From Barnesiella sp. An22 (GTDB lineage: Bacteria; Bacteroidota; Bacteroidia; Bacteroidales; Barnesiellaceae), in assembly GCF_002159975.1 (NCBI RefSeq), contig NZ_NFJR01000003.1, positions 270,414 to 334,413 of the forward strand: 64,000 nt of DNA. Reading direction: 5' to 3'. The notes under the pieces are model-generated. The model saw nothing but the letters and a program-made list of their open reading frames with translations, was not told the origin of the DNA and did not search any database. This document shows, piece by piece, positions 4,881 to 58,760 of this stretch. Numbering within the stretch: the first letter of the stretch is position 1; every line of letters starts with the position of its first letter. The translations under genes and the position numbers were made by a program.

Positions 4881-4911
4881 TTTGCGAATGTGCAAAAAAG
4901 TCGTACCTTTG
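4881..4911 (+). promoter_or_regulatory. Promoter of the queuosine transporter-queF operon
   Basis: TTTG (4881-4884), a 19-base spacer, then TACCTTTG (4904-4911): a full match to the Bacteroidales sigmaABfr consensus. Transcription would start near 4918, giving a ~75-base leader that contains the preQ1 aptamer. Confidence 0.85.
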
Positions 4912-4936
4912 CAGCCGAAATTTTTGCAGAACCTGT

Positions 4937-4990
4937 GAGGCGGACCTGCGTGCGCCTCCCGTGTGCTTGAACACCACGTAAAAAACAAGA
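4937..4990 (+). ncRNA. preQ1-I riboswitch (with an upstream P0-type hairpin)
   Basis: The core is 4960-4990. P1 pairs CGUG (4960-4963) with CACG (4975-4978). Loop bases CUUG (4966-4969) pair with CAAG (4986-4989) across the A-rich strand UAAAAAA, making the H-type pseudoknot; the ACACC stretch before the 3' side of P1 matches the aptamer consensus. The layout parallels the Bacillus preQ1-I element almost base for base. The tail ends 4 bases before the ATG at 4994, so ligand binding would hide the initiation region (translational OFF switch, inferred). GAGGCG (4937-4942) pairs with CGCCTC (4953-4958) just upstream. The gene controlled, a queuosine-precursor transporter, fits the ligand. Confidence 0.85.
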
Positions 4991-22785: not shown

Positions 22786-22814
22786 TAAAAAAATGTTCAA
22801 CAACATCTTTTTTT
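22786..22814. promoter_or_regulatory. Palindrome ATGTT-N4-AACAT in the alaS/M23 gap
   Basis: ATGTTCAACAACAT (22793-22806) is flanked by a run of A on one side and CTTTTTTTT on the other, so it could equally be a hairpin with tails. Same half-sites as the two identical palindromes at 39285 and 58747. Confidence 0.4.
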
Positions 22815-39231: not shown

Positions 39232-39263
39232 CGAATTTAACATAAACCGAAATAAAATGCAAA
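39232..39263 (-). promoter_or_regulatory. Promoter of the glycogen operon
   Basis: On the minus strand TTTG (39263-39260), 20 bases, TAAATTCG (39239-39232, one base off TAnnTTTG). The leader is about 120 bases. The gap 39108-39382 holds this promoter, the palindrome and the terminator of the neighbouring surface protein, and no gene. Confidence 0.65.
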
Positions 39264-39284: not shown

Positions 39285-39298
39285 ATGTTCTTAAACAT
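39285..39298. promoter_or_regulatory. Perfect palindrome ATGTT-CTTA-AACAT upstream of the glycogen operon
   Basis: A 14-bp operator-like site identical to 58747-58760, centred about 66 bases upstream of the predicted transcription start. The 5-4-5 symmetry is that of CRP/FNR-family sites; the position suits activation. Confidence 0.7.
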
Positions 39299-39347
39299 AC
39301 CTTCACAAACGACAATATATCAATGCCTTAGAACGATTATAAAATCA

Positions 39348-39377
39348 AAAAGGTTCCGGCCGAAACCGGAACCTTTT
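39348..39377 (-). terminator. Terminator of the GLUG surface-protein gene
   Basis: AAAAGGTTCCGG pairs with CCGGAACCTTTT across a 6-base loop; the minus strand continues TTTTGATTTT. Confidence 0.88.
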
Positions 39378-39382
39378 CTGAT

Positions 39383-42300
39383 TTATCGCTTGATGATTCG
39401 TTCTACCCGATCGCCACAGCGCACCAGGTAGAGCCCCTGAGTCAACTGCGACATCTCTACGACGGTCAATCCTTCGGCAGGCTCGACAATCGAGACCGTG
39501 TGGCCCGACAAATCGTAGAGATAGATTGTCTGCTCGGCCCCGCTCACATAGAGCTGATGGTCTACTACCGTAGGATAGATGCGTACCTGGGCCGACATCG
39601 TCGACTCGATTGCCGAATAGCCGGGGTCCTCCTCGGTCAGCACGGGATAGCCCTCGTTTTGTGCGGCATCGACCATCCAGTAGAAGGCCTTATGCTCGGT
39701 ATTGGTCGCATTGTATGCGCGGGTCCAGTTGTTCAAGCCGGCGGCAAACGTGCGGGTCTTCATTTCGTCGGCACTCAATGCACGGCCCAGATAATCGCCG
39801 GCAACCACACACCCCGACTCATAGTAGCTATTCTCTACGTTGGCATCTTGCGGAGCAATCGGGGCAACGATTCCACCCGTCGTCGACACAGCACCCACAT
39901 TGTAACAGTTGGCTACCCGAACCGCTATAATCCAGTGACCCGATATACCACCCACGTACGCCAACTCATCAGCAGATATTCGCCCGGTATTGTAACAGTT
40001 TATTACACTCGATTCTTGACTGGAATAACCCAGAATACCTCCGGCTGAAGAGTAGTCGTGCGTTGAACCCTCGACTGTTACATCAGCGCTATTGGCACAA
40101 TTCAGAATCGTCGAACTGTCCAAATATCCTCCTATACCTCCCGTGAAGGCCATATAGACCGAATAGTTGCCCGTTATCTGCACCTGGCCTGCTACCGGGC
40201 CCCTGTTTTCACACTGGTCAACGACCGAACCAGTCGCATAACCCACAATGCCACCCACATAACCATAGGGAGCCTCGAGTTCGACCGAAGCCCGGTTGAT
40301 GCACGCATCGATTGTCGAGTTGTAGGCATACGCGGCAATACCACCGCCATAGGTCGAACTCTTTACGATACAGTCGTCGGCCAGTACCACATGGGAGATG
40401 TGAGCTTGCGCAATCTGCCCGAAGAGCCCAGCAACGGCGGTATAGGCCGAGATTACCTCGCTGTGCAGATTGTGAATCTCGTAACCGCCGCCGTCGAAGG
40501 TACCACGGAAGGCCACGTCTACCGAACCTATCGGCTCCCACTTGAGACCGTCCAAATCGATATTGCCGGCCAGTGTCACCATCTTCCCTTCGAAGGTAGT
40601 GCCTGTCTTGACCAGATAGGCCAAACCGGCCAACTGTGCCGGGGTCGAGAGGGTAAACTCGGTTTGCGACTCGTCGTACCACGAAGCATCGTAGTTCCCT
40701 TCCGAGGTCCACCAGCCACCTACCTCGATATTCCCGCCCAATACGGGATAGCCGTTGTTCTCACCGGCCCGGATTTCCCAGGCGGAAAGAGTGGGCGAAT
40801 AGGGATCGCTATCCATCACAGACGTAGCATTGGCGGTGAGCAGTCCGGCAAATTCGTCACGCTTCATTTCGTCGGGTTGCATGGCCACACCTTTGATATT
40901 CAAGCCGGTCGTATCGGCCATGCACGTCACATCGTAGTACCCGTTTTCCAAAGAGAACTCTGTCGGATTACCCAGAGGCGAAATCTCTACAATAGCCGGA
41001 TTGCCATCCACCTCTATACCCGTGGCCGACAATTTGCCTGCATGATATACATTCGTCTGATTGGAATAGGAAGCACAAATTCCACCCACATGCACATCGG
41101 GGCCGGTTCCCGATACGTCACCTACATGGAAACAATTTATAATACGGGCATTTACGCCTGCCAGGCCCGAAACCCAGATAGTTGCATGATCAGACACGGC
41201 AACGATACGGCCACTGCTCGATGAATTGTAAATGGGTTTGTAGGATATGTCGAATCCCACCAGTCCACCTATGAACGACTCGGTATAACCCTCATGGCTT
41301 ACCTCTATTGAGGCCTGGCTGTGACAGTTATTCACACTTGCTCCGTCAAATACACCGGAGACCGCACCTACCATTCCCTGCAACGCAGCGACTATCTTCA
41401 CGCGCACCGAGCAGTCATCGGCCAAGGTAATATTCCTGACTTCGCCAGAAGTACACCCTATAAATCCAATCAGTACAGCACTTCTTACCCGACCGCAAGA
41501 ATAAGACTCTACCTCTACATCCATGTGATGAATCGTATGGCCATTGCCATCGATGTTACCCCGGAAGATTCGGTAATTGTAACCGATGGGCACCCAACGA
41601 TGACCGCTCAAGTCTATATCGTTGGCCAGCTTCACTGTTTTACCGGTGAAATCATAAGAGTGATAAACCAGATAAGAGAGGCCGGCCAACTGTGCCGGAG
41701 TCGAGAGGGTAAACTCGGTTTGCGACTCGTCGTACCACGAGATGTCGTAGTTCCCTTCCGAGATCCACCAGCCGGTAGCCTGCTGTTGCTCGGTACTCAA
41801 CTCGGGGCCATTTGCACCCTGGCGCCACTGCGACAACGATTCGACCCACGGGTCTTTCTCCAAAATGGTCATGACCGCCTCGTTCATCGTGGCCACCTGA
41901 GCCTGAGAGAGCAACTCCCCTTGCGAGAGGGCATACTCGTTATCGCTCACTTCCTCGGGCAAGCAACCGGCCCGGTAGTAGCCATGTTCTACAAATTCGT
42001 TTTCAAAAGTACCGGCTAAACCGCCAAACCGGGGAGCCTCAGCCACTCTGTCGGCAGTAATCGGCAATCGCCACCCATCCAGATACCCCACAGATTCTCC
42101 ATTTTCATAAGCAGAGATGAGTATCACTAAATTTTCGTCCGTGAAAGTAATTGCATTCCCATCCGTCGAAAGCGTTACCACCAGTTCACCACTTGCACCC
42201 GTCTCATTTTCCAAGGTCAACGAATAGCGGTTGGAATACATTCCTACCATCTGTCCCAGGGGAATGTGCAGCTTTCCATCGCTTTCCAGATTCCCGGTCA

Positions 42301-44527
42301 TCGAATAGCTCATCTCGGCACGAGTAGAGTAGATAGACAAGATATATTCATCGGCCGAATCAATCGAAGGCGAAATCGTCACGTCTAACGGAATTTCAAG
42401 ATCCTCTTCTCCCTGGAAAGGCGACAAAGCCGAGGCGTGATACGTGCCCACCCATTCACTGTCGGCACCTTGTGCGGCTACCCGGCCATTAAATATCGAC
42501 GACAACAGCATGGCATTCATGCAGTTGCCTGCCAAACCGCCGGCCGTATTGCCATATACCGTAGCATCGGAGCGACAATTCGTAATCGAACCTGTGCTTA
42601 TCAAGCCCGCTATCGAACCGGCCGTCAAGCCCGATACCATACACGTAGAGGAGAGCATAAGGTTACAGATATCGGCACCCTCGGCATATCCAAACAACCC
42701 GGCATAAGCAGCGCCGTCGACCCGCATTCCCGAGATGGTATGGCCACAGCCGTCGAACAGTCCCACGAAAGAGCGAGCCCCATCCTGGGTTTTATTGCCA
42801 ATCGGTATCCACCGATAGGCCGACAAGTCTATATCGGCTCCCAAACGAACCGTTACACCATTCGCAAGGCCTATGTGATAGACCAAATAGGACAAGCCCG
42901 CCAACTGTGCCGGAGTCGAGAGGGTAAACTCGGTTTTCGTATTGTCGTACCACGAGGTATCGTAATTGCCCTCGTCCCACCACGAGGAGGTAGGACAAAC
43001 CTCGGTACTCAAGGCAGGGCCTGAAGCCCCCGATGTCCACATGTTCATACTCTTCTCGGCTTGTGTCGGAGCCACCTCACGCACATACTCATTCAGGTCG
43101 TCGACCAACTGCGACGATTGCATCTCCTCATCGGTAAGTGCCGTACCCACTACCTGATTGGCATTGGTTACACTGTTTTCGGAGTAGTAGCAATACGCCC
43201 AGTCATATCCGCCGCTACCGACAAGCGCTCCACTCACGTCATCGCTCAGTAACCGGGCCGAGAGGGGCATCACCAGACTTTCACAAAGATATAAAGACTC
43301 ACCGTCTTCGGTCATCAAAACAGCAAACGTATTGCCCTGCGATGTGGTCAGGGTCACCGTCCTTCTATCGTCGGAGAGCGTTCCCAAAAATTCACCCTCG
43401 ACAAAGGCCGTAGTTTCCTCCAAAGCACACAAATAGAGCTTCCAGGTATCGCTCGAGCCTACATACTGGCCCAATGGAATGTGCAGCAGGCCATCGCTCC
43501 CGACCTTTCCGCCAAACTGATACGACAAAGCTTGTACCCCGGCAAACGAAATATCCAGGCTGTCGGGATAATCGGTACGCGGTACAAATCCTATCTGAAA
43601 ACCTTGCGAAACCGAGCTGTCGGATCCACTGGGTGCATATCCAAGATAATTACCCGACCATTTCTCGGGGAGGAACTTCGAAACCCGGCCATTGAATACA
43701 CACAGGCGAACCCGCGTACCATTGCAGGCCCCGACCAGTCCGCCTACCGTATGGCCCGAAACAGTAGCTTCGGAGTAGCAATTCTCTATCACTCCCTCGT
43801 CGTCTATCGAACCAATTATGGAACCGGCGATATTGCCGCTTATCTGACAATCGGAGGCCAACATCACATTGCGTATCTCGCCCCCTCGCACATACCCGAA
43901 GAGTCCGGCATACTCCTGACCGGTCACATGCAGGCCCGAAATCGTATGCCCGCCACCGTCAAATGTACCTCTAAACGAGATTTGAGAGGTGCCAATCGGT
44001 ATCCACTCGTGGGCCGACATATCCAAATCGGCCTCCAATCGTATGGTTACATTCCCAAAAGAATAACCCGAAGAGAGCCTATAGGCCAAACCGGCCAACT
44101 GCTCGGGAGTGGTCAGCCGATACAGTCTGACCGAACCATCAAACCACGATATATCGTAGTTTCCCTCATCGATCCAGGTCGTAGTCTGGGCCTGTTGCCG
44201 CCGGGCCATAACCTGCTCCCGACCGGACTGCAGCCGAGACCAGTCGCGCCCTGTAACCTGAACGGGAACCGACCACGACGGAATCGTCACCTTCGAGAGT
44301 CGCTTGCCGGAGAGCGACATAACCGACTCTCCCTTCGACAACTTTGCCTGTACAGACTTCTGTCCGGGGAGGGCCTGCGAACGGTTCGGAGCAGAAGCCT
44401 CGTTCAAACCCTTCAGCCGCATCTGAGCCAGCTGTACGGGCGAGAGCCGCTTCAACGGCTGTTCGGTAGCCCCTACGATTCCCACAGCCAAGCAACTCAA
44501 TACCAATAATGTAAGAATTCTTTTCAT
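39383..44527 (-). CDS. Giant T9SS-exported GLUG-repeat surface protein
   Basis: 1714 residues. Signal peptide MKRILTLLVLSCLAVGIVGA. Four large modules begin near residues 118, 516, 919 and 1272. Each opens with an EGNYDxSWxD block (WWTSEGNYDASWYDESQTEF in the last) followed by TLSTPAQLAGLxYLV, then a beta-helical stretch with GLUG-type turns (GNIDLDGLKWEPIG, FRGTFDGGGYEIHNLH, AGLFGQI, VGGIVGYATG). This matches bacterial GLUG-motif adhesins. The end is a T9SS type A sorting domain (VRIYPTVVDHQLYV ... LTQGLYLVRCGDRVERI). A 55-residue upstream extension of the frame lacks similarity and was dropped. Probably a surface adhesin; the ligand is unknown. Confidence 0.9.
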   Translation of the reverse strand: MKRILTLLVLSCLAVGIVGATEQPLKRLSPVQLAQMRLKGLNEASAPNRSQALPGQKSVQAKLSKGESVMSLSGKRLSKVTIPSWSVPVQVTGRDWSRLQSGREQVMARRQQAQTTTWIDEGNYDISWFDGSVRLYRLTTPEQLAGLAYRLSSGYSFGNVTIRLEADLDMSAHEWIPIGTSQISFRGTFDGGGHTISGLHVTGQEYAGLFGYVRGGEIRNVMLASDCQISGNIAGSIIGSIDDEGVIENCYSEATVSGHTVGGLVGACNGTRVRLCVFNGRVSKFLPEKWSGNYLGYAPSGSDSSVSQGFQIGFVPRTDYPDSLDISFAGVQALSYQFGGKVGSDGLLHIPLGQYVGSSDTWKLYLCALEETTAFVEGEFLGTLSDDRRTVTLTTSQGNTFAVLMTEDGESLYLCESLVMPLSARLLSDDVSGALVGSGGYDWAYCYYSENSVTNANQVVGTALTDEEMQSSQLVDDLNEYVREVAPTQAEKSMNMWTSGASGPALSTEVCPTSSWWDEGNYDTSWYDNTKTEFTLSTPAQLAGLSYLVYHIGLANGVTVRLGADIDLSAYRWIPIGNKTQDGARSFVGLFDGCGHTISGMRVDGAAYAGLFGYAEGADICNLMLSSTCMVSGLTAGSIAGLISTGSITNCRSDATVYGNTAGGLAGNCMNAMLLSSIFNGRVAAQGADSEWVGTYHASALSPFQGEEDLEIPLDVTISPSIDSADEYILSIYSTRAEMSYSMTGNLESDGKLHIPLGQMVGMYSNRYSLTLENETGASGELVVTLSTDGNAITFTDENLVILISAYENGESVGYLDGWRLPITADRVAEAPRFGGLAGTFENEFVEHGYYRAGCLPEEVSDNEYALSQGELLSQAQVATMNEAVMTILEKDPWVESLSQWRQGANGPELSTEQQQATGWWISEGNYDISWYDESQTEFTLSTPAQLAGLSYLVYHSYDFTGKTVKLANDIDLSGHRWVPIGYNYRIFRGNIDGNGHTIHHMDVEVESYSCGRVRSAVLIGFIGCTSGEVRNITLADDCSVRVKIVAALQGMVGAVSGVFDGASVNNCHSQASIEVSHEGYTESFIGGLVGFDISYKPIYNSSSSGRIVAVSDHATIWVSGLAGVNARIINCFHVGDVSGTGPDVHVGGICASYSNQTNVYHAGKLSATGIEVDGNPAIVEISPLGNPTEFSLENGYYDVTCMADTTGLNIKGVAMQPDEMKRDEFAGLLTANATSVMDSDPYSPTLSAWEIRAGENNGYPVLGGNIEVGGWWTSEGNYDASWYDESQTEFTLSTPAQLAGLAYLVKTGTTFEGKMVTLAGNIDLDGLKWEPIGSVDVAFRGTFDGGGYEIHNLHSEVISAYTAVAGLFGQIAQAHISHVVLADDCIVKSSTYGGGIAAYAYNSTIDACINRASVELEAPYGYVGGIVGYATGSVVDQCENRGPVAGQVQITGNYSVYMAFTGGIGGYLDSSTILNCANSADVTVEGSTHDYSSAGGILGYSSQESSVINCYNTGRISADELAYVGGISGHWIIAVRVANCYNVGAVSTTGGIVAPIAPQDANVENSYYESGCVVAGDYLGRALSADEMKTRTFAAGLNNWTRAYNATNTEHKAFYWMVDAAQNEGYPVLTEEDPGYSAIESTMSAQVRIYPTVVDHQLYVSGAEQTIYLYDLSGHTVSIVEPAEGLTVVEMSQLTQGLYLVRCGDRVERIIKR
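40626..42955. repeat. Three ~55-bp direct repeats inside the GLUG protein gene
   Basis: The segments at about 40626-40684, 41681-41742 and 42897-42955 are nearly identical (shared core GAGAGGGTAAACTCGGTTT) and encode the QTEFTLSTPAQLAGL module opening. They are spaced 1.06 and 1.22 kb apart, so homologous recombination could drop or add a module. Confidence 0.75.
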
Positions 44528-44718
44528 ATATATTTCGATTAAAGTTTGTCCCTGTCTCCAAAATATAGCGAAGTAAATAAGCAGTCCCAAAGTCCTCCTT
44601 TTGATTTCAGCCCATCGTTTATAAATGCAAAGAAAATAAAAAATATAATACTCGAGCTGTTTTTCCTTTCCTTTTTTTACATACCGACCCACAGAGTCAA
44701 CAATTTATATAACAGCAG

Positions 44719-44753
44719 CGAGGCGGAGCACCCCAATCGGGTACTCCGCCTCG
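44719..44753 (-). terminator. Hairpin after marC
   Basis: CGAGGCGGAG pairs with CTCCGCCTCG across a 15-base loop, ~30 bases past the MarC stop; no T-run follows. The rest of the gap 44528-44781 shows no gene. Confidence 0.5.
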
Positions 44754-44781
44754 ACGATATATCGCTATAAAAAAGTTACTA

Positions 44782-45378
44782 CTACGAGAACGACTCGAGC
44801 GCTACGGCCAGATTCTGCAAGAACATGCGCACCGAGAGGGCCAGCAGAATGATACCGAAGAACTTGCGCAGCACATATACACCGGTCTTGCCCAGCACTC
44901 GTTCCAAGATGTGCACGTTGCGTATCACGATGTAGATGACAATGATGTTGAGCACCAAAGCCGCCAATATACTGCCCAGGCCATAGAGTGCCCGCAGCGA
45001 GAGCAGCGTGGTGAACGAACCGGCTCCGGCAATGAGCGGGAATACGATGGGTACAATCGAGGCGGCACCCTCGGGGCCGTCGTTTCTGAAAATTTCAATA
45101 CCCAACAGCATCTCGATAGCCATGACGAAAATGACCAGGGCACCAGCGATGGCAAACGACGAAATGTCGACCTGGAACAACTCGAGAATCATATTTCCCA
45201 TAAAGAGGAAGGCCAGGAAGGTGACGAGCGAATAGACGGCAGCCTTCCACGCCACAATGTTATGACCCTTTTGCTTCATGTCGATAATAATCGGGGTAAG
45301 CCCCGTAATATCGATTACCGCAAACAAAATAATAAAAGCACTCAGGAAATCCTGAAATTTAAACGACAGTATATCCAT
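44782..45378 (-). CDS. MarC-family integral membrane protein
   Basis: 198 residues with six predicted transmembrane helices (for example FLSAFIILFAVIDITGLTPI and ALVIFVMAIEMLLGIEIF). The conserved SIVPIVFPLIAGAGSFTTLL block near residue 110 is the MarC/UPF0056 signature. Despite the name, the family's link to multiple antibiotic resistance has been withdrawn; the substrate is unknown. A -7 box lies 102-109 bases upstream. Divergent from the CRP/FNR gene. Confidence 0.93.
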   Translation of the reverse strand: MDILSFKFQDFLSAFIILFAVIDITGLTPIIIDMKQKGHNIVAWKAAVYSLVTFLAFLFMGNMILELFQVDISSFAIAGALVIFVMAIEMLLGIEIFRNDGPEGAASIVPIVFPLIAGAGSFTTLLSLRALYGLGSILAALVLNIIVIYIVIRNVHILERVLGKTGVYVLRKFFGIILLALSVRMFLQNLAVALESFS

Positions 45379-45479
45379 ATTCCATATAGTTTAGGCGTGT
45401 GTGACAACAATTCAAAACCGGCTGTGCAAAGGGCTATACACCCGTCGGTATCACTCCGAACAGACCTTCGTGGCCGCCG

Positions 45480-45487
45480 CAAAGTTA
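45480..45487 (-). promoter_or_regulatory. -7 element for marC
   Basis: Minus-strand TAACTTTG, a perfect TAnnTTTG. Confidence 0.55.
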
Positions 45488-45568
45488 ATGAAAAAAAAAG
45501 AAATCAATACTTTCTAAACAAAGAAGATGTTTTAGCATTTCAAACGAAACATAGTGAAAAAAATTTGT

Positions 45569-45576
45569 TAGTTTTG
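45569..45576 (+). promoter_or_regulatory. -7 element for the CRP/FNR regulator
   Basis: TAGTTTTG matches TAnnTTTG, 23 bases before the ATG. Confidence 0.6.
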
Positions 45577-45598
45577 AGAATCCTAATTGAGACACTAT

Positions 45599-46297
45599 AT
45601 GGACAGCATGTATGATGTTTTATTACAACTCCCTATTTTCCAAGGAGTAAGCCGGAATAAAATATCGGAGTTGATCGAGAAAATGAAATTCCATTTCCTC
45701 AAATATCCCAATGGCGAGAAAATCGTCACAAGTGGTGAAGAATGTAATCATCTGAAATTTCTCATTTCGGGCGAAATCAGGTCGGAACTGATTACGCAAA
45801 ACGAGAAGATGAAAATTACCGAAAAAATACAGGCGCCTAATGTCATAGCCCCCGAACATCTGTTCGGCCGCGATACCTATTTCCCGGCCAACCTGTATGC
45901 CGAAGGCACCGTAGGAATCATGCAAATCGAGAAGAGTTCGGTCGTACAAATGTTGCAAGAAGAACCTATATTCCTCATCAACCTGCTCAACATTCTGTCG
46001 CGACGCTCGCAAAAGGCTCTCGAAAGCTTCACCGCCCTCTCGTCGAACGACTTGAAAGAACGGTTGGCATTCTGGGTGCTGAGCCTTACGCAACAAAAAT
46101 CGAGCGACATCCACATCATCTGCAAGCAAAAAGACCTCTATGCCTTCTTCGGGGTACAGCGGTCGGTATTCCTTTCGACACTCGACTGTCTGAAAGAGAG
46201 CGGCATCATCGACTACACGGCCAAAGAGATTGTCATCCTCGACCGCTCCCGATTGAAAGACCTGTTGCTCGACTCGACCGATAAAGAGGACTTCTAA
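45599..46297 (+). CDS. CRP/FNR-family transcriptional regulator
   Basis: 232 residues. A cyclic-nucleotide-type effector domain spans about 10-130 (FQGVSRNKISELIEKMKFHF, then GEKIVTSGEECNHLKFLISG). A dimer helix (about 115-150) leads to a winged HTH at about 155-225 whose recognition region is DLYAFFGVQRSVFLSTLDCL. The phosphate-binding cassette of true cAMP receptors is not seen and there is no FNR-type N-terminal cysteine cluster, so the signal is unknown. The size and layout resemble the CRP-like carbohydrate regulators of Bacteroides (Cur/BT4338 type); orthology is a guess. An in-frame TTG four codons earlier is a less likely start. Confidence 0.9.
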   Translation: MDSMYDVLLQLPIFQGVSRNKISELIEKMKFHFLKYPNGEKIVTSGEECNHLKFLISGEIRSELITQNEKMKITEKIQAPNVIAPEHLFGRDTYFPANLYAEGTVGIMQIEKSSVVQMLQEEPIFLINLLNILSRRSQKALESFTALSSNDLKERLAFWVLSLTQQKSSDIHIICKQKDLYAFFGVQRSVFLSTLDCLKESGIIDYTAKEIVILDRSRLKDLLLDSTDKEDF

Positions 46298-46369
46298 CCC
46301 AAACATTCCACCTCATCGAACGAGGTACCCAAATGGTCACCTCGCACCATGAGTGTCCGTATAAAATCA

Positions 46370-46420
46370 TAAGAGAGAGAACCGCGCTCAGCCACCACGA
46401 CACGGTTCTCTCTCTTTTTT
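46370..46420 (+). terminator. Terminator of the CRP/FNR gene
   Basis: AGAGAGAGAACCG pairs with CGGTTCTCTCTCT, then T6. Confidence 0.88.
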
Positions 46421-46436
46421 CTACCCTCTTCCACAC

Positions 46437-46477
46437 AAAAACGAGAGGTCTGCCGAATCCGGCAAACCTCCCGTTTT
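46437..46477 (-). terminator. Terminator of the truncated sialidase gene
   Basis: On the minus strand AACGGGAGGTTTGCCG pairs with CGGCAGACCTCTCGTT, then T5. Confidence 0.85.
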
Positions 46478-46523
46478 ATCTCCGCTTCCCGTCAAACGGG
46501 AAACAGCAGCACATCACTTCTTC

Positions 46524-48140: not shown

Positions 48141-48385
48141 TCATGAAATGTATTGCATCTCCCCGTACCTCAGTCCTCAGACATAACACTATTCATACAC
48201 AAAGCCTCTAAACACCCTATCGATACAATGCCCCTGCCTCATCACATATCGCCCCGTTACAGATACACGACCAGGATAAAGAGCCCCGATAAATAAATAT
48301 CTTTATTTTATAGACCGGAATTTTCGAGACGACACCCATTAGGCATCTACCCGCATGCGCCTCGATTTATAAACGAAAAAGTCTT
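48141..48385. other. Gap upstream of the sialidase remnant
   Basis: About 245 AT-rich bases between the break in the sialidase frame and the PFOR terminator. No ORF, insertion-sequence end or clear inverted repeat marks the break; the missing 5' part of the gene is nowhere else in the window. Confidence 0.4.
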
Positions 48386-48424
48386 AAAAAAAGAGGTCCG
48401 AGACCTTTACAGGCCCCGGACCTC
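48386..48424 (-). terminator. Terminator of the PFOR gene
   Basis: GAGGTCCG pairs with CGGACCTC; the minus strand continues with T7. Confidence 0.9.
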
Positions 48425-48461
48425 CCGGTTTTTATGGTGCGACTAAACGCGTCTTGTGTTT

Positions 48462-51400: not shown

Positions 51401-52025
51401 CGCGGGCGCGGAACTCGGCCAAAGCCTCTTGGTCGATGAGCGGAGCCAGGTCTTCGTTGTCGAGAGCTTCGATTTTCTGAATCTCGTGCGAAGTACGGAA
51501 ACCGTCGAAGAAGTTGATAAACGGTACACGCGAACGAATCGTAGACAAGTGAGCGACACCGGCCAGGTCCATCACCTCTTGAACCGAACCTTCGCACAAC
51601 ATGGCGAAACCGGTCTGACGAGTCGACATCACATCCTGGTGGTCACCGAAAATAGAGAGTGAGTGAGAGGCCAATGTACGAGCCGATACATGGAACACGC
51701 AGGGGAGCAACTCACCCGCAATCTTGTACATGTTGGGGATCATCAGCAAAAGACCTTGCGATGCCGTGTAGGTAGTCGTCAAGGCACCGGCCTGCAACGA
51801 ACCGTGAACGGCTCCGGCAGCACCGCCCTCCGACTGCATCTCTTGTACGAGAACCGTCTCGCCGAAGATGTTTTTACGACCGGCAGCAGCCCATTCGTCT
51901 ACATACTCGGCCATCGTCGAAGAGGGAGTGATAGGATAGATGGCAGCCACCTCGGAAAACATATACGAGATATGTGCAGCGGCTTGGTTACCATCACAAG
52001 TTAAGAATTTTTTCTGTTTACTCAT
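48462..52025 (-). CDS. nifJ: Pyruvate:ferredoxin (flavodoxin) oxidoreductase, single-chain
   Basis: 1187 residues, the fused homodimeric type. It oxidises pyruvate with CoA to acetyl-CoA, CO2 and reduced ferredoxin in anaerobic metabolism. The N-terminal pyruvate-binding domain has YPITPSSTMAEYVDEWAAAG. A ferredoxin domain with two [4Fe-4S] motifs is near 690-760 (CIQCNKCAYVCPH and CLGCGNCVDVCPG). The C-terminal TPP domain holds the proximal-cluster cysteines in GACSGCGETPYVKL and the TPP loop GDGASYDIGFGGLDHVLASG. It is the main window evidence for a strict anaerobe. It starts 44 bases after the ATPase stop on the same strand. Confidence 0.97.
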   Translation of the reverse strand: MSKQKKFLTCDGNQAAAHISYMFSEVAAIYPITPSSTMAEYVDEWAAAGRKNIFGETVLVQEMQSEGGAAGAVHGSLQAGALTTTYTASQGLLLMIPNMYKIAGELLPCVFHVSARTLASHSLSIFGDHQDVMSTRQTGFAMLCEGSVQEVMDLAGVAHLSTIRSRVPFINFFDGFRTSHEIQKIEALDNEDLAPLIDQEALAEFRARALNPEKPVMRGMAENPDTFFQHREASNKYYEAVPAIVEDYMQKINEITGRDYHLFNYYGAEDADRVIIAMGSVTEAAREAIDYLMAKGEKVGLVAVHLYRPFSAEHFLAAVPKTAKRIAVLDRTKEPGSNGEPLYLDVRDVFYGKADAPLIVGGRYGLASKDTTPTQILSVYENLALPEPKDHFTIGIVDDVTFTSLPPKEELALGGEGMFEAKFYGLGADGTVGANKNSVKIIGDNTDKYCQAYFSYDSKKSGGFTCSHLRFGDTPIRSTYLVNTPNFVACHVQAYLHMYDVLRGIRPNGTFLLNTIWTADELVKHLPNNVKRTLAQKNISFYTINATKIAQEIGLGNRTNTILQSAFFRITEVIPVDLAIEQMKKFIVKSYGKKGEDVVNKNYAAVDRGGEYEKVAVDPAWANLPDDEAVESKAPEFVEKVVKVINAQAGDDLPVSAFSGIEDGTWPAGTAKYEKRGVSTFVPVWNNANCIQCNKCAYVCPHASIRPFVLDADELAASPFKEGETLEMKVPATMKGMHFRMQVDVLDCLGCGNCVDVCPGNKNGKALSMADLESQLSEAPRWEYCADHVKSKQHLVDIKSNVKNSQFATPLFEFSGACSGCGETPYVKLISQLFGDREMVSNATGCSSIYSGSIPSTPYTTNEKGKGVAWANSLFEDFCEFGLGMTLAVEKMRDRLAKLMNQAIESDSCPAETKELFADWIANREDTDRTVELEAKITPIVKANADKCEICKEIASLSQYLIKKSQWIIGGDGASYDIGFGGLDHVLASGKNVNVLVLDTEVYSNTGGQASKATPVGAIAKFAAAGKRVRKKDLGLIASTYGYVYCAQVAMGADQAQTLKAIREAEAYNGPSIIIAYAPCINHGLKAGMGKSQAEEAAAVACGYWHLWRYNPELEAEGKNPFTLDSKEPDWSKFQDFLKGEVRFASVMKQYPNEAAELFKAAEDNARWRYNNYRRLAKQQWGVEQED

Positions 52026-52069
52026 CTTTACTGTTATTAAGTAATTAGTATTGTTTTTTCATCTCTATA

Positions 52070-53248
52070 TCAATATACAAACCCAAACAGCCACAAAGGT
52101 ATCAAGTTTTCGCTTCCAATCTTCATATTGTCTATGGCATAATAGAAATTGGGATTGATGCGGCTGCGGGGCACATTGCCCTGAACACGGAACAACTGCT
52201 CGCGATTGACCAGGAACTGAGCGTTCTTGCTGCCCATGTTCAACCGGTGATCCTTGTGCAACGTATTGTAGAAAAAGGTCTCGCGCACAGCCTGATCGTC
52301 GGCCTCGACCGAGCGGTTGGAGTATATGATGTTGGTATTGTGCATATAGACCATGGCCGGCTTCTTGGGGAACTCTTCGCCATCGCGATAGAGCATGTTG
52401 ATGAGGCGGGCATCCTTCAGGCTCTTGATGTAGTTCATCACCGTGGCCCGCGAAATCTGTATGTCCTTGCTCAACTGGCTCACATTGGTGGGTGCCGGCG
52501 ACTGTACCGAGAGCAGGTACATGAGCCGCCGCACCTTGGGCAGATACGACAACTCTATCTGCTTGATCAGGAGTATATCGACCTCCATAATCATGTTGAT
52601 GTTCTTCACCAGATTTTCCGAGAAGTTGGTCTTATCGAGGAAGAACGGATAGTAACCGTGGTGCAGATAGCCGGGGAAGTAATCGAGCGGATTGACCTGA
52701 CTGCAAATCTCTTGAGCTATCGTCTTGTGATGGGCCATGATGTCGTCGAGCGTGTAGGCGGGGAACCGGGTCGAAGCCATCAGATTCAGATACTCTCTGA
52801 ACGAGAAGCCCCGCAGGTTGTACGAGTCGACCAGGCCGGCCAGCACGGGATTCTCCTCTTTCAACCGCATCACCGACGAACCGGAGAAGATAATCTTCAA
52901 CTCGGGGAAAGTATCGTAGCAGTATTTCAGCTCTTCGGACCATCCGGGATACTTGAACACCTGGTCGATGAGCAGCACCCGGCCGCCCTGACTGTAAAAG
53001 CGCTCGGCAAACTCCCTCAACGTATGCTCCGTAAAGTATAGGTTATTGAGATTGATATACAGGCACGACCGGTCCAAGCCGTAATTTTCCTTGGCATACT
53101 GCAACAGAAAGGTGGTCTTGCCCACTCCCCGACTGCCCTTGATGCCTACCAGACGGCTGTTTTTGTTGATTTGATACATCAAGTCGCGTTTGACCGGCGA
53201 CTCGACATGCTCAACGAGATACTTGTGTGTTCTATAAAACGATTCCAC
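52070..53248 (-). CDS. AAA ATPase of the DUF4143 type
   Basis: 392 residues from a GTG start. The P-loop GSRGVGKTTFLL is near residue 37-48 and the Walker B-like RVLLIDQVFKYPGW near 90. A winged-helix segment (VSQLSKDIQISRATVMNYIK) comes near 265, followed by a C-terminal nuclease-like DUF4143 region. No ATG stands near the expected N-terminus (ESFYRTHKYLVEHVESPV); the GTG at 53248 gives the family start and lies 22 bases after a perfect -7 box, whereas the first ATG would remove the start of the domain. These ATPases are common orphans in Bacteroidales; their role is unknown. Confidence 0.85.
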   Translation of the reverse strand: MESFYRTHKYLVEHVESPVKRDLMYQINKNSRLVGIKGSRGVGKTTFLLQYAKENYGLDRSCLYINLNNLYFTEHTLREFAERFYSQGGRVLLIDQVFKYPGWSEELKYCYDTFPELKIIFSGSSVMRLKEENPVLAGLVDSYNLRGFSFREYLNLMASTRFPAYTLDDIMAHHKTIAQEICSQVNPLDYFPGYLHHGYYPFFLDKTNFSENLVKNINMIMEVDILLIKQIELSYLPKVRRLMYLLSVQSPAPTNVSQLSKDIQISRATVMNYIKSLKDARLINMLYRDGEEFPKKPAMVYMHNTNIIYSNRSVEADDQAVRETFFYNTLHKDHRLNMGSKNAQFLVNREQLFRVQGNVPRSRINPNFYYAIDNMKIGSENLIPLWLFGFVY

Positions 53249-53270
53249 GGCTTCTCTCTTAAACAGGGGG

Positions 53271-53278
53271 CAAAGATA
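53271..53278 (-). promoter_or_regulatory. -7 element for the ATPase gene
   Basis: Minus-strand TATCTTTG, a perfect TAnnTTTG, leaving a leader of ~16 bases to the GTG start. Confidence 0.6.
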
Positions 53279-53460
53279 ATAAAACCCGACTATTTTGGCA
53301 AGCCGACTTTGCAATTTATAGTGAGATTGTGGAGTTTACATCCGATTTTAACATTCTTTCAACTCTCTCTGTTCTCTCGATTTTCATCCCCTTCTCCCAC
53401 CCGACGGGGCTTTGCGAGACACTCCATTCAACCGGGAGAGCCTCTCTCAAGGAGAAACAA

Positions 53461-53493
53461 AAAAAGAGAGAGGCTGCCATTCAGCAACCTCTC
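53461..53493 (-). terminator. Terminator of the OmpA porin-like gene
   Basis: Minus-strand GAGAGGTTGC pairs with GCAGCCTCTC (one G-U) followed by TCTTTTTTTG. Confidence 0.85.
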
Positions 53494-53525
53494 CCCCTAT
53501 TGTGTTTTGTTCTCTTGTGCAGTAA

Positions 53526-54701
53526 TTACTCAGCCGGCGAAATAGTAGCGGCACGGTCGAGGATATAAGAACCGAAGCGATCGAGTTTGGCATCGCTGGT
53601 CTTTTGCTCCAGTTGGTCGGGATTTACACCGTAAGAAACCAAAGCATCGTAAACTCTTTCGGCACGAGCCTTGCGCAGTTTGGCATTGAAGGCAGCCGTA
53701 CCCGTTTCGCTGTCGGCATAACCGGTGATGACATATTTCTTGCCTTCGTTAGCCTTGATGGCTTTCGCTACGGCTCTCAACACTACGCGGTCTTTCGATT
53801 GCAGTTCCGAGCTGTTGATGTTGTAGTAAACCGTAACTACGGGAGCAGGTTCTTCAACCACTTTCTCGGCCGGACGATTCTTGCACTCGGCCAATTGTTG
53901 CTCGAGGTTGGCAATCTTGCGGTTGGCATCGCGCAACTGAGCTACCAGAGCATCGCCTTCGGCATCGCTATATTTGCCTACAACCGGTGCTACAACAGGA
54001 ATCTCGGGCGACTTCCATCCACGATCTTTGAATTTGTAGGTTACACCTACCAAAGCCGAAAACGCTTTGCCGTGATTTCCTTCATTAGAAACGGTCGTTT
54101 CCAATACGTCGAAACGCAAATCGAGGTTGATGGCCCAAGCATCGCTCAAGCGGAAGCGGTTGAGCAAACCACCACGCATACCCATGTTGGCCCAACTGGG
54201 AATATCACCTTCGCCCGATATGCCTACAGGGACACTCATACCGACGTACAGGATAGGCGAATAAACGCGTTCGCGATAACCACAGAACAGACTCGCCAAG
54301 TCACCCATCACATCGAGACCGGGAACAATAAGGCCATACGATTGTTTATAATAGGTGTTGTCGAGCATTTCATTGCTAACCCCATGCCCCCACAAAGCGG
54401 CACCTTTGATTCCGTAATAATCGGCGCCCAAACGCAAGCCGATAACCGGTGAGAACCATTTCTCAACATTCAGTCCAAACACAGGGGCGATACGTTTGCC
54501 AAAAGAGGCATTACTATCAAAACGTCCCAAGCTAAAATCGGCTCCGCCCTCAAGCGAAATCATCCAATTGTCCTTAAAGCTATTCAAGACAATCTCTTTG
54601 GAAGATTCTGTTTTAGCTTCCTCCTGGGGAGCTGCTGCAAGCATTGCCGGCGTTGCTACTCCAGTAGCCATAAGCAAAACCGCAAATACAGTCTTCTTCA
54701 T
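53526..54701 (-). CDS. OmpA-family outer membrane protein
   Basis: 391 residues. Signal peptide MKKTVFAVLLMATGVATPAM. A beta-barrel of about 200 residues (SLEGGADFSLGRF opening, MRGGLLNRFRLSDAWAINLD, ALVGVTYKFKDRGW at the end) leads to a short coiled coil (ALVAQLRDANRKIANLEQQL). The C-terminal OmpA domain (about 285-385) binds peptidoglycan: VITGYADSETGTAAFNAKLR and RAERVYDALVSYGV. It resembles the Pgm6/7 major OmpA-like proteins of Porphyromonas gingivalis. The many runs of T upstream leave the promoter unclear (TACCTTTA at 54813-54806 is the best -7). Confidence 0.93.
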   Translation of the reverse strand: MKKTVFAVLLMATGVATPAMLAAAPQEEAKTESSKEIVLNSFKDNWMISLEGGADFSLGRFDSNASFGKRIAPVFGLNVEKWFSPVIGLRLGADYYGIKGAALWGHGVSNEMLDNTYYKQSYGLIVPGLDVMGDLASLFCGYRERVYSPILYVGMSVPVGISGEGDIPSWANMGMRGGLLNRFRLSDAWAINLDLRFDVLETTVSNEGNHGKAFSALVGVTYKFKDRGWKSPEIPVVAPVVGKYSDAEGDALVAQLRDANRKIANLEQQLAECKNRPAEKVVEEPAPVVTVYYNINSSELQSKDRVVLRAVAKAIKANEGKKYVITGYADSETGTAAFNAKLRKARAERVYDALVSYGVNPDQLEQKTSDAKLDRFGSYILDRAATISPAE

Positions 54702-54854
54702 ACTTTTTCCTTTTTTTAATTAAAACTACTTTAATATCGGCAATCCGACCCTCTTCTTTCAAGGAATAGAGCAGATTGCGTCATAGACCCAACTAAATTT
54801 TCGGATAAAGGTACACGTTTTTTTTTACTCAGCAAACAATTTTTATTTAAATTT

Positions 54855-54893
54855 ACAAGAAAATCGCTTCTCCGTATTCCAGAGAAGCGATTT
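54855..54893 (-). terminator. Terminator of the transketolase gene
   Basis: AAATCGCTTCTC pairs perfectly with GAGAAGCGATTT; the minus strand continues TTCTTG. Confidence 0.85.
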
Positions 54894-54921
54894 CGGTCAA
54901 ATATGGCAATAGTTTCAACCT

Positions 54922-56955
54922 TTATTTACCAATGTATGAAGCTATTTCGTGCGCAATATGATCGGGTGTAAAGCCCAATTTCTCGTCGAGCACCTTATAG
55001 GGAGCCGAATAACCGAAGCGGTCCAGCCCGTAAATCTTACCACCTGTACCCACAACCGGCAACAGCGTCGAGGGCAAACCGGCCGTCAACCCGAATACGG
55101 GCAAGCCGGCAGGGATTACAGCCTCGCGATACGACTGCGGCTGGTCGAGGAAGAGCCCGATCGAGGGCACCGATACGATTTGTACTTTTACTCCCTGACC
55201 GTGCAGTATCTCGCTCGCACCGACCAGAGTCGACACCTCTGAACCGTTGGCAACCAGCACCACATCGGGGTTCTCGTCGCGCATCAACACATAGGCGCCC
55301 TTCTCGGCCTGCAAGGCATCGGCATAACGGTTGCCCGTAGCCGAAGGCAGGTCGGGCACATCCTGCCGCGACAGAATCAAGGCCGTAGGCGTATCGTTGT
55401 TCTCCATCGCCAGCTTCCAGGCGACCAACGTCTCGGCACTGTCGGCCGGGCGCAACACCAATACGCTGTTCTTTCCGCTGTGGTTTTTCAGCTGTTCCAA
55501 AAGCCGGATTTGTGCCTCTTGCTCTACGGGCTCGTGAGTAGGACCATCTTCGCCCACCCGGAATGCGTCGTGTGTCCACACATACTTCACCGGCAGCTCC
55601 ATCAAGGCAGCCATGCGCACGGCAGGTTTCATATAGTCCGAGAATACAAAGAAGGTACCGCAAGCGGCCTGCATGCCGCCGTGCAGCAAAATGCCGTTCA
55701 TAATCGAAGCCATGGTGAGCTCGGCTACACCGGCGTGCAGGAAGGCACCTTTGAAATTTCCTTTCGAGAAAGCACCGGTCTTTTTCAAGAAGGCCTCGGT
55801 CTTGTCCGAGTTGGCCAGGTCGGCCGACGAAACCACCATATTTTTCACCCGCTCGCCCAGATACGAAAGCACGTTGGCCGAAGCCGTACGGGTAGCCACA
55901 TTGGGCTTGTACTCAATCGAAGCGAAATCGAGTTCGGGCAATTTGCCGGCATAGAAGTCGTGCAGCTCGGCAGCCAGTTCGGGATTCTCCTTCTCCCAGG
56001 CAGCCTGCACGGCCTTGCGCTCGGCGACAATCTTTTTCAGCTCCTCGGCCCGACGGGCATACAGGTCAACCACCTCGGGGAATATCACGAACGGATTCTC
56101 TACGTTTCCGCCCAAATTTTCAACCGTCTTTTCGTACGAAGCGCCCGATTTGCTCAAGGGTTGCCCGTGCGTAGAATATTTACCTTCGAACTTCTCGCCT
56201 GTAGCCGTCACGCAGCCACGGCCCATGATGGTCTTGCCAATGATGAGCGTGGGGCGTTCGGTCTCGCGGTTGGCCAGAGCCAAGGCATCGCGAATGGCCG
56301 CAGGGTCGCACCCGTCTATCTCGATGACATTCCAGTTCCACGCCCGATATTTGGCAGCCGTATCTTCGTCGGTCACCGCATCGGTATCGGTCGAGAGCTG
56401 CACGTCGTTGCTGTCGAAAAACATAATCAGGTTGTGCAACCCCAGGAACCCGGCTACACGACCGGCTCCCTGCGAAATCTCTTCCTGTATACCACCGTCG
56501 GAGATGAACGCATAGATCTTATGGCTGCACCACTCGCCGAAACGAGCAGCCATGAAGCGCTCGGCAATCGCTGCGCCCACAGCCATCGTGTGCCCCTGCC
56601 CCAGCGGACCCGAGGTATTTTCGATACCATGTTTCACATCGACTTCGGGGTGCCCCGGCGTAATGCTGCCCCACTGGCGGAACGATTTCAAATCGTCCAT
56701 CGTATAGAAACCCGCCATCGCCAGCACGCTGTACAACATAGGGGACATGTGCCCGGGATCCAGGAAGAAACGGTCCCGATTGATCCATTGCGGATCCTCA
56801 GGATCATACACCAGAAACTCGGAATACAACACATTGGTAAAATCGGCACCACCCATGGCTCCGCCGGGGTGTCCCGATTTGGCCTTTTCAACCATTGCTG
56901 CCGTCAATACTCTTATATTGTCAGCCGCTCTGTTCAACAAGCTCGTATCGTTCAT
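54922..56955 (-). CDS. tkt: Transketolase
   Basis: 677 residues, full length. It moves two-carbon units between sugar phosphates in the pentose phosphate pathway with thiamine diphosphate. Motifs in order: SGHPGGAMG (about 28-36), GHMSPMLYSVLAM, GPLGQGHTMAVGAAIAERF, SDGGIQEEISQG (TPP/Mg binding, about 155-166), then the pyrimidine domain with HDAFRVGEDGPTHEPVEQ (about 460-477). The ATG at 56955 follows a -7 element (TATTTTTG, 56976-56969) by only about 13 bases, so the leader is very short. It lies downstream of the sugar permease gene, separated by a terminator. Confidence 0.97.
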   Translation of the reverse strand: MNDTSLLNRAADNIRVLTAAMVEKAKSGHPGGAMGGADFTNVLYSEFLVYDPEDPQWINRDRFFLDPGHMSPMLYSVLAMAGFYTMDDLKSFRQWGSITPGHPEVDVKHGIENTSGPLGQGHTMAVGAAIAERFMAARFGEWCSHKIYAFISDGGIQEEISQGAGRVAGFLGLHNLIMFFDSNDVQLSTDTDAVTDEDTAAKYRAWNWNVIEIDGCDPAAIRDALALANRETERPTLIIGKTIMGRGCVTATGEKFEGKYSTHGQPLSKSGASYEKTVENLGGNVENPFVIFPEVVDLYARRAEELKKIVAERKAVQAAWEKENPELAAELHDFYAGKLPELDFASIEYKPNVATRTASANVLSYLGERVKNMVVSSADLANSDKTEAFLKKTGAFSKGNFKGAFLHAGVAELTMASIMNGILLHGGMQAACGTFFVFSDYMKPAVRMAALMELPVKYVWTHDAFRVGEDGPTHEPVEQEAQIRLLEQLKNHSGKNSVLVLRPADSAETLVAWKLAMENNDTPTALILSRQDVPDLPSATGNRYADALQAEKGAYVLMRDENPDVVLVANGSEVSTLVGASEILHGQGVKVQIVSVPSIGLFLDQPQSYREAVIPAGLPVFGLTAGLPSTLLPVVGTGGKIYGLDRFGYSAPYKVLDEKLGFTPDHIAHEIASYIGK

Positions 56956-56968
56956 GGAATTTTTTTTA

Positions 56969-56976
56969 CAAAAATA
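56969..56976 (-). promoter_or_regulatory. -7 element for tkt
   Basis: Minus-strand TATTTTTG, a perfect TAnnTTTG close to the start codon; a TTTG lies 24 bases further upstream, slightly long for the spacer. Confidence 0.5.
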
Positions 56977-57019
56977 ATACAATTCGCGAGTATAAACCTA
57001 CAAAAACAGACAAAAGTTC

Positions 57020-57063
57020 TCAAAAAGAAAAAGAGAGCGAGGCTCCGGCCCCACTCTCTTTTA
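57020..57063 (-). terminator. Terminator of the sugar permease gene
   Basis: Minus-strand AAAGAGAG...CTCTCTTT stem with an inner GGCC pair, followed by TTCTTTTTGAG. Confidence 0.75.
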
Positions 57064-57095
57064 TCTATATATTTATGCGATAGACAAATAGTCGA

Positions 57096-58580
57096 TCAAT
57101 CTTCGGTAGGAATATCGGTATTGACATTCTTGCAACCGATCAGGCCATAGTACAGCAGGTATGCCAACATGGCAATTACCAGCCAGTAGCTGGCCAGGTA
57201 GCCGAAGCTGCCCGAGAGCATGTTCTGGATAAACGGCATCACACCGCCACCCACTACCATGGCCATGAAGATACCCGAAGCCTTGGCCGTGTATTTGCCC
57301 AGACCTTCGACTGCGAGGTTGAAGATACCACCCCACATCACCGAGGTGCACAGACCGCAGAGTACCAGGAAGAGGGCACTCAGGGGAACCTTGGGCGTTT
57401 CGAGCGATTTCATCACCGACTCGGGAGTCATCTTCTCCGTAGCCAAGGCTGCGGCATTTTGCTCCAGGAATTCGGCAGAGGGATTGGCCACGAAAGCCTC
57501 GGCCTCGGCAGCCGGGATACCGGCATTCTCCAGAAGCTCGACGGTCTTTTTGGCCGGGTCGTATACAAACTTCGGTACATCGAAACCTACGGTTTTAGGC
57601 GTGAAGATGGCAATCAACGTGAGGACAATGGCTACCGACGAAACGGCTATCAACTGAGCGCGGGTCGAAACCTTGCCGCTGATCAAGCTACTCAAGAAAC
57701 GGCCTACCAGCATCAGCAACCAGTAGATGGCCACGATGGCACCACCGATGGCGGCCCCGTTCACCAGAATACCGGCACCCTTGGCACTCGTATCGGCCAT
57801 GAAGAAGTTCAACTGAGCGGGGATACCTACCTCGATACCTACATAGAGGAAGATGGCAATCACACCCAGCAACGTGTGACGGAAGGCCAGCGGGCTATGC
57901 TCGAATTTCTCTTGGGGCTCACCCTTCTTGGCCAGGTGAGGTTCAGGGATGGCAATCGCCGAGATGATAATGAACGAAACGGCAAACACGGCCATGGCGA
58001 TGAAGAGCAGCGGAGTCACGTCGCTCATGGCGGTCTTGTCGGTTACCGAACCGATGAGCACACCCACGAAGAGCGGGGTAAGCGTAGCGGCCAGCGAGTT
58101 GAGGGTACCACCGGTTTGAATCAACTGGTTACCTTTGTTACCGCCACCACCGAGCAGGTTCAGCATGGGGTTTACCACGGTGTTGAGCATACATACGCAG
58201 AAACCGCAGATGAAGGCACCCAACAGATAGATAATCAGGTTCAGATACACCTCTTGTCCCCCTACGGAGAAGAGAGCCGTATCGGCACCCACAACACTCG
58301 ACAAATACTGAATAAAGAGGCCCACGAAACCTACGGCCATAGCCGTAAGAGCTGTTTTCTTGTAGCCGATTTTCACCAGCATCGTACCCGCAGGTACACC
58401 CATAAACAGATAGGCCAAAAAGTTCATCATGTTACCCATCATGCCGGCCCACGAATACTGGTTACCCCAGATAAGTCCGAACGGTGCCGCCAGATTGGTG
58501 ACGAAAGCAATCATTGCAAACAGGAACATCATTGCGATAATGGCAATAATTTTCCCCTTGTTTTTCTGATCTGTACTCAT
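57096..58580 (-). CDS. MFS sugar permease, FHS family (fucose / glucose-galactose permease type)
   Basis: 494 residues with about 12 transmembrane helices. The MFS/FHS features include the N-terminal NLAAPFGLIWGNQYSW, the first-loop VPAGTMLVKIGYKKTA and helix 5 FCVCMLNTVVNPMLNLLGGG with QTGGTLNSLAATLTPLFVG. A hydrophilic insertion of about 60 residues (PAAEAEAFVANPSAEFLEQN and around, about 345-405) sits between late helices, unusual in length. A proton-coupled monosaccharide importer is likely; the sugar is not certain. The operator-like palindrome shared with the glycogen operon lies 167 bases before the start. Confidence 0.92.
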   Translation of the reverse strand: MSTDQKNKGKIIAIIAMMFLFAMIAFVTNLAAPFGLIWGNQYSWAGMMGNMMNFLAYLFMGVPAGTMLVKIGYKKTALTAMAVGFVGLFIQYLSSVVGADTALFSVGGQEVYLNLIIYLLGAFICGFCVCMLNTVVNPMLNLLGGGGNKGNQLIQTGGTLNSLAATLTPLFVGVLIGSVTDKTAMSDVTPLLFIAMAVFAVSFIIISAIAIPEPHLAKKGEPQEKFEHSPLAFRHTLLGVIAIFLYVGIEVGIPAQLNFFMADTSAKGAGILVNGAAIGGAIVAIYWLLMLVGRFLSSLISGKVSTRAQLIAVSSVAIVLTLIAIFTPKTVGFDVPKFVYDPAKKTVELLENAGIPAAEAEAFVANPSAEFLEQNAAALATEKMTPESVMKSLETPKVPLSALFLVLCGLCTSVMWGGIFNLAVEGLGKYTAKASGIFMAMVVGGGVMPFIQNMLSGSFGYLASYWLVIAMLAYLLYYGLIGCKNVNTDIPTED

Positions 58581-58704
58581 TTTATAAGATTTTAATTTTA
58601 ATGTATTTAGAATAATATAAATGTCTCTATTGATATATGTGTGTGTCTATTCACGTGAATTCTTTTTCGGCCTTCTGTTTTTCTGGAAAACTTAAAATTA
58701 AGGA

Positions 58705-58712
58705 CAAAAGTA
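58705..58712 (-). promoter_or_regulatory. -7 element for the sugar permease
   Basis: Minus-strand TACTTTTG matches TAnnTTTG; a TTCG at 58734-58731 is a weak -33 box at 18 bases. A second TATATTTG (58747-58740) touches the palindrome. Confidence 0.55.
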
Positions 58713-58746
58713 ATGCTTATTATTCAGCTACGAACACAACAAATAT

Positions 58747-58760
58747 ATGTTCTTAAACAT
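58747..58760. promoter_or_regulatory. Perfect palindrome ATGTT-CTTA-AACAT upstream of the sugar permease
   Basis: All 14 bases identical to the site at 39285-39298, centred about 55 bases upstream of the predicted start of transcription. Confidence 0.7.

Follow-up and report, generated by a model that had tools for sequence, protein, structure and literature searches.

Two copies of a 14-bp palindrome, ATGTTCTTAAACAT, lie upstream of a glycogen operon and of a gene for an FHS-type sugar permease in Barnesiella sp. An22, within the 64,000-nucleotide stretch of contig NZ_NFJR01000003.1 (positions 270,414 to 334,413) that was analysed here and is called the window. Judged by its letters, this palindrome is the core of the motif published for Cur, the Crp-family regulator BT4338 of Bacteroides thetaiotaomicron; the motif is real but already known. 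What our study adds is a set of Cur-type targets in the genus Barnesiella and, more interesting, the presence of the motif in the promoters of FopS small RNAs (sRNAs). We regard it as probable that the Cur ortholog of this organism would bind both palindromes and, once preferred carbon is exhausted, switch on both the glycogen operon and the permease gene. We favour this reading because the motif matches, the ortholog has the recognition segment of its Bacteroides counterparts, a site precedes fusA2, both sites are conserved in the genus and their distance to the predicted -7 box is fixed. Binding by Cur, carbon limitation as the signal and activation as the effect are each what we infer from these sequence comparisons.

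The BT4338 consensus, wwwTATGTTnTAnAACATAwww, was proposed for B. thetaiotaomicron by comparative genomics (PMC3878776) and was later supported by chromatin immunoprecipitation (ChIP) and by deletion of a 22-bp site before fusA2 (PMC6989115). The fusA2 gene is the strongest Cur ChIP target and is activated by Cur in B. thetaiotaomicron (PMC6989115), where binding of Cur increases under carbon limitation (PMC10294740). The initial annotation of the window had taken the palindrome for a dimer site of the Crp/Fnr type, and this was borne out by the match to the published motif and by a Cur ortholog encoded in the genome.

The positions given in that annotation, 39285-39298 and 58747-58760, were exact, as were the distances of 178 and 167 bases by which the palindromes begin upstream of the start codons (minus strand, 39107 and 58580). 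Sites were scored by the number of positions matched out of 12 in TATGTT-N4-AACATA, with the reversed pattern as control; on this scale the predicted Cur site before the glycogen operon matches 11/12 and the one before the permease gene 12/12, flanks included. A third ATGTT-N4-AACAT had been mentioned as intergenic and was found as ATGTTCAACAACAT at 22793-22806, between alaS (minus strand) and an M23 peptidase gene (plus strand), with no others in 64 kb. This third site is weakly conserved, the exact 14-mer being present in three of the six genomes aligned. Three occurrences compare with 0.05 expected from shuffling (the earlier estimate was about 0.06), and none of 100 dinucleotide-preserving shuffles reached three, so three palindromes in 64 kb are not a product of chance. 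The genome-wide scan against expectation that had been suggested as a check returned 17 sites for the 14-mer in the whole An22 genome compared with 3 for the reversed pattern. Our genus sample consisted of nine genomes (G000-G008), which are not independent of one another; summed over them the 14-mer had 113 sites versus 45 reversed, and the 16-mer TATGTTNNNNAACATA had 48 matches versus 4. Palindromes without function that arose by accident are very improbable in view of these counts and of orthologous conservation with fixed spacing, which was looked for across the genus and found, even if some of the data lean that way: 6 of the 17 own-genome 14-mers fall inside coding frames and look like background, and genomes of other families differ in their 14-mer excess, several showing none over the reversed pattern. 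The remaining 11 of the 17 are intergenic by our own gene calls, according to which the own-genome stretches are about 89% coding.

The first gene after the upstream site of the glycogen operon encodes a glycogen debranching enzyme with GDE_N and amylo-alpha-1,6-glucosidase domains (37161-39107, minus strand; PF12439, PF06202; TIGR01561 below its cut-off). On the same strand lie a glycogen-synthase-like glycosyltransferase (35874-37142; PF00534, PF08323; TIGR02149 below its cut-off) and a glycoside hydrolase family 57 protein (34480-35853; PF03065, E 2.1e-76). Within the genus the site is an exact 14-mer in eight of the nine genomes and carries a single substitution in one. The predicted core promoter consists of TTTG at 39260-39263 as the -33 box and TAAATTCG at 39232-39239 as the -7 box (both minus strand), the latter one mismatch from TANNTTTG. 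The arrangement TTTG-N20-TAAATTCG stands at the same offsets in 9/9 genomes, and every one of them has an offset of 59 between the centre of the palindrome and the last G of this -7 box. Farther upstream, between the site and the gene before it, is the inverted repeat AAAAGGTTCCGG/CCGGAACCTTTT (39348-39377, minus strand), which by its sequence is the predicted terminator of that preceding gene and is partly conserved in the genus. The palindromes themselves are also inverted repeats in intergenic DNA, and might on that ground be taken for RNA hairpins serving as a terminator or leader. We find this hardly credible, as they are placed ahead of the predicted transcription start and are not followed by a T run, the terminator-like repeat is a separate element, and their four centre bases vary while the half-sites are mostly kept.

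The second palindrome precedes a gene for a sugar permease of the major facilitator superfamily (MFS), closest to the glucose/galactose (gluP) family (57096-58580, minus strand; PF07690; TIGR01272 and NF046060 below their cut-offs), which is followed by a transketolase gene. The site is exact in six of the nine genus genomes and has TATGCT in one half-site in three. The permease itself matches in parts only, with 46-65% identity, in G002, G004 and G006; there the promoter does align, as does the end of the gene before it. The predicted -7 box, TACTTTTG at 58705-58712 (minus strand), corresponds to a TANNTTTG box kept in 9/9 genomes, at an offset of 48 from the site in eight and 47 in one. The initial annotation had placed both palindromes just upstream of a -33/-7 promoter, which holds for the debranching-enzyme gene; for the permease gene the -7 box stands, but the own-genome promoter has no TTTG at the usual spacing before it, so this part of the claim is weaker. 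Rfam-predicted FopS starts lie 5 bases beyond the last G of the -7 box; if the same distance is assumed for the transcription starts here, the centres of the palindromes lie at about -64 (glycogen) and -53 (permease), close to the approximately -66 and -55 estimated before. Cur bound at about -53, near its position at fusA2, and at about -64 could contact RNA polymerase from upstream; the glycogen site lies some 11 bp farther upstream, above the -33/-7 pair, as would be expected of an activator upstream of the polymerase. Such contact would raise transcription and thereby couple sugar uptake and glycogen turnover to starvation.

The fusA2 gene (EF-G2, NF058620) served as positive control. A Cur-type site was present 104-109 bases before its ATG in 9/9 genus genomes, with 11/12 at -108 in the own genome. 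Outside the genus 20 genomes were searched and 19 had a match; one locus (L271) was dropped for having 24 bases of upstream DNA, which left 18, and among these a site of at least 10/12 was found in 10 versus 3 for the reversed pattern, and one of 12/12 in 4 versus 0. If TAATTTG is taken as the box, the centre of the site is 47 bases from the last G of the -7 box in eight of the nine genus genomes, nearly equal to the 48 of the permease gene; in the ninth the pattern failed, and TATTTTG was seen by eye at the same place. The site lies in a divergent gap shared with hemW, and hemW may also be a Cur target because a strict -7 box faces the hemW side as well in 7/9 genomes.

Five cyclic nucleotide (cNMP)-binding proteins are encoded in the genome. 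The Cur candidate is a protein of 233 amino acids (locus L001:1393-2094), closest among solved structures to 2gau. Six named Bacteroides records contain relatives that share 65-67% identity with it, and the Cur of Barnesiella sp. An55 (NZ_NFHZ01000008.1) shares 97%. Within its recognition helix, the segment NLSNMTTSNAIRTLS is the same in 8/8 named records compared and invariant or nearly so in a 16-row alignment, and trxB neighbours the gene in 9 of 17 loci tested. Before the cur start codon, a palindrome TGTGCT-N4-AACAYR or a close variant overlaps the end of a TANNTTTG-like box in most of 12 rows. Among the 32 loci examined (of 80 fetched), 20 had a match of 8-11/12 lying 20-28 bases before the start, the own-genome match being 10/12 at -20. 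Single scores of this kind are not above chance; the evidence is the position kept in relatives. An autoregulatory site has been reported for BT4338 orthologs (PMC3878776), in line with this. As a separate observation, one genome of another family (G116) encodes two Cur-like proteins, which have 67% and 54% identity to the Cur candidate.

Crp/Fnr proteins often have similar sites, and one such regulator is encoded in the window itself, between the two palindromes (45587-46297, plus strand; closest solved relative 1zyb). That this or another Crp/Fnr protein is the binder is nonetheless unlikely. The recognition helix of the window protein, GVQRSVFLSTLD, is unlike that of Cur, the best palindrome upstream of its gene scores 8/12, and the motif marks fusA2 and cur. 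The protein was rejected as the binder on the strength of its 1zyb relationship, its helix and the evidence from fusA2 and cur.

Several results weigh against the proposal that Cur activates both transcription units, and they concern the site, the regulator and the direction of the effect. The four centre bases of the window sites (CTTA, or TAAG when reversed) differ from the nTAn of the consensus at one position, and at fusA2 the box falls one base short of TANNTTTG and was missed by a strict search. The protein at L001 is a likely Cur ortholog by its named Bacteroides relatives, the motif and the trxB neighbour, not by comparison with BT4338 directly. Beyond the genus, 33 glycogen loci were examined (21 of 47 other genomes with a match, together with 12 loci from 11 genomes). 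A site of at least 10/12 was found in 4 of 31 loci versus 3 of 31 for the reversed pattern, one of at least 11/12 in 1 of 31, equal to the reversed control (1/31), and the two further loci that were examined apart (L088 and L090) had no match of at least 10/12. The glycogen site is thus at background outside the genus and therefore looks like a genus-level gain. For the permease, 14 loci were examined of 20 outside genomes with a match, and a site of at least 10/12 was found in two (L226 with 11/12 and L228 with 10/12) versus one reversed match at 10/12. Degenerate remnants of the site lie at -136 to -161 in L225, L227, L231 and L233. The initial annotation had offered conservation in orthologous promoters as a check on its claim; both sites are conserved within the genus, but the glycogen site is not conserved beyond it.

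The direction of the effect is the remaining difficulty. Among the genes both bound and changed in B. thetaiotaomicron, Cur represses 140 of 175 and activates 35 (PMC6989115), and the glycogen operon includes a glycogen-synthase-like glycosyltransferase. Cur might accordingly bind both sites and repress the glycogen operon, with glycogen synthesis switched off under carbon limitation. We hold this to be a possible but doubtful alternative, since the sites of cur and FopS overlap the predicted core promoter, whereas those before the two transcription units, centred at about -64 and -53, both stand upstream of it. Activation by Cur from upstream is the reading that we retain.

Two of the own-genome sites adjoin matches to the FopS family (RF04319), at L007:4990-5058 and L016:5022-5090, which scored 81.6 and 80.9 bits against a cut-off of 56. 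Above the gathering score of RF04319, six FopS matches were found in eight of the nine genus genomes and five in G007. Among 60 relatives, 22 had matches with E of 0.001 or less and 17 had matches above the cut-off; the filters of this search were stricter, so that weak matches are lost. The 82 listed matches that exceeded the cut-off were all examined (53 from the genus and 29 from other families; loci L283-L369 besides L007 and L016). Within the genus, the 110 bases upstream of each of the 53 matches were scanned, and a palindrome of at least 10/12 was present in 27, in 26 cases at -27 to -29; the reversed pattern gave one, and 200 shuffles gave 1.7 on average and 6 at most. In other families it was present in 14 of 29, with 12 at -27 to -31 and two at -60/-61, compared with three for the reversed pattern and, for shuffled sequences, 0.9 on average and 4 at most; these shuffles preserve base composition only. 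TTTG was found in the -33 region of none of the 38 palindrome-bearing promoters versus 24 of the 44 others, and TTG in 18/38 versus 41/44, where it is partly made up of letters of the palindrome. The lack of TTTG in all 38, taken with the position of the palindrome, indicates that the site overlies the predicted -33 box of these promoters.

A site on the -33 box of FopS fits occlusion and Cur-dependent activation alike. In B. thetaiotaomicron the level of FopS is lower on high-mannose glycan than on glucose (PMC11697453), which would fit repression. The same source describes canonical promoters for FopS in Bacteroidaceae and co-expression of the B. thetaiotaomicron members, and an unknown regulator is invoked there in connection with bile salts and not with carbon; these points weigh against a role of Cur at FopS. 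In its available text, Cur appears just as a comparison for a fitness effect (PMC11697453). sRNAs near Cur sites have been noted elsewhere (PMC10294740). We put at about even the chance that Cur is a missing transcriptional regulator of FopS across Bacteroidales, sitting on roughly half of the -33 boxes and switching RbpB-bound sRNAs that repress polysaccharide utilization loci, and that in Barnesiella it has also captured the glycogen operon. Our estimate had been slightly higher and was reduced because canonical promoters and co-expression are reported for the B. thetaiotaomicron members (PMC11697453). If the proposal is true, it describes a carbon circuit in which a transcription factor and sRNAs act in two tiers. 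The Cur motif on FopS promoters provides a testable regulator candidate for a family whose control is partly known, and palindrome-bearing and palindrome-free FopS paralogs offer built-in controls in each genome.

The initial annotation had proposed a carbon-control regulon, and had suggested enrichment upstream of carbohydrate genes as a check. Only two of the 11 intergenic own-genome sites face carbohydrate genes, and both are the window sites. The regulon is broader than sugar genes, and the carbon link therefore rests on the identity of the regulator and not on gene bias. Carbon control and the link between glycogen and sugar uptake stand, but a regulon marked by carbohydrate genes is not supported. 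The other intergenic sites lie in the hemW/fusA2 gap, beside the two FopS sRNAs (one of which lies immediately downstream of a GH125 gene), before a C10 protease gene, at the rnf/vor junction, in the metA gap, in the recG/M23 and alaS/M23 gaps, and at one unassigned place. Ortholog groups of these sites were built from exact matches among fetched loci, and their counts are lower bounds: at least 9 genomes for rnf/vor, 8 for recG/M23, 7 for the FopS beside MTHFR, 6 for the metA gap, 5 for the C10 protease, 5 for fusA2 (as fetched there) and 2 for the second FopS.

Some of these loci have features of their own. At the rnf/vor junction (L006:4413-4888), a Cur-type site lies in 9/9 genomes between the end of the rnf operon and a short ferredoxin-like frame, recognized by eye, before vorB. 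The gap also has a conserved hairpin between the genes that flank the site and perhaps encodes an unannotated sRNA; a search for a known sRNA between rnf and vor gave nothing credible in Rfam. The -7 box of the metA gap, which has an offset of 34 in 6/6 loci, is directed not at metA but at a 43-codon frame, recovered in five of the six. This frame (L015, minus strand, 4833-4964; also L176, L181, L189 and L194) is conserved, is followed by a terminator-like repeat in L015 and possibly encodes a starvation small protein. The site at L014:4931 precedes the gene of a secreted C10-family protease with a sorting domain of the type IX secretion system (T9SS) in five fetched genomes, with the -7 offset fixed at 53. 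In the recG/M23 gap (L019:5021), the distance from the site to the -7 box of the peptidase gene is 125-127 in 8/8 genomes, and the DNA between them is largely divergent.

In the literature, the main texts of PMC6989115 and PMC10294740 do not contain the word 'glycogen', and PMC3878776 uses it once, without target context. The texts of PMC3878776 and PMC6989115, as distinct from their supplementary tables, name neither a glycogen operon nor a gluP-type permease as a Cur target in the parts available. Our literature search found no relevant study of a link between Cur and glycogen in Bacteroides or Barnesiella, and none that relates carbon storage to starvation in the latter genus. Cur governs colonization by gut Bacteroides and their switch to poor carbon sources, and a conserved Cur-type site at both a glycogen operon and a permease gene is a concrete prediction that ties carbon storage to starvation in Barnesiella.

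The arrangement has a parallel in Escherichia coli, where CRP controls glgCAP and sugar permeases through the half-site TGTGA-N6-TCACA. In both cases a Crp-family regulator acting at upstream sites would link sugar uptake with glycogen genes; the E. coli system differs in its half-site and in the type of promoter, and its CRP is a remote relative of the Cur described here. The nearest known system is the Cur regulon of B. thetaiotaomicron (PMC3878776, PMC6989115), which shares the palindrome TATGTT-N4-AACATA, an orthologous regulator and sites at fusA2 and cur, and from which Barnesiella differs by the site at the glycogen operon that is at background outside the genus. The sRNAs found here exceed the Rfam cut-off of the FopS family (PMC11697453); the Cur palindrome is present in around half of their promoters and absent from the rest, whereas that paper describes promoters that are canonical and members that are co-expressed. 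MasB, an sRNA activated by Cur (PMC10994844), sets a precedent for Cur acting through a small RNA, although it is described as narrowly conserved and is not a member of FopS.

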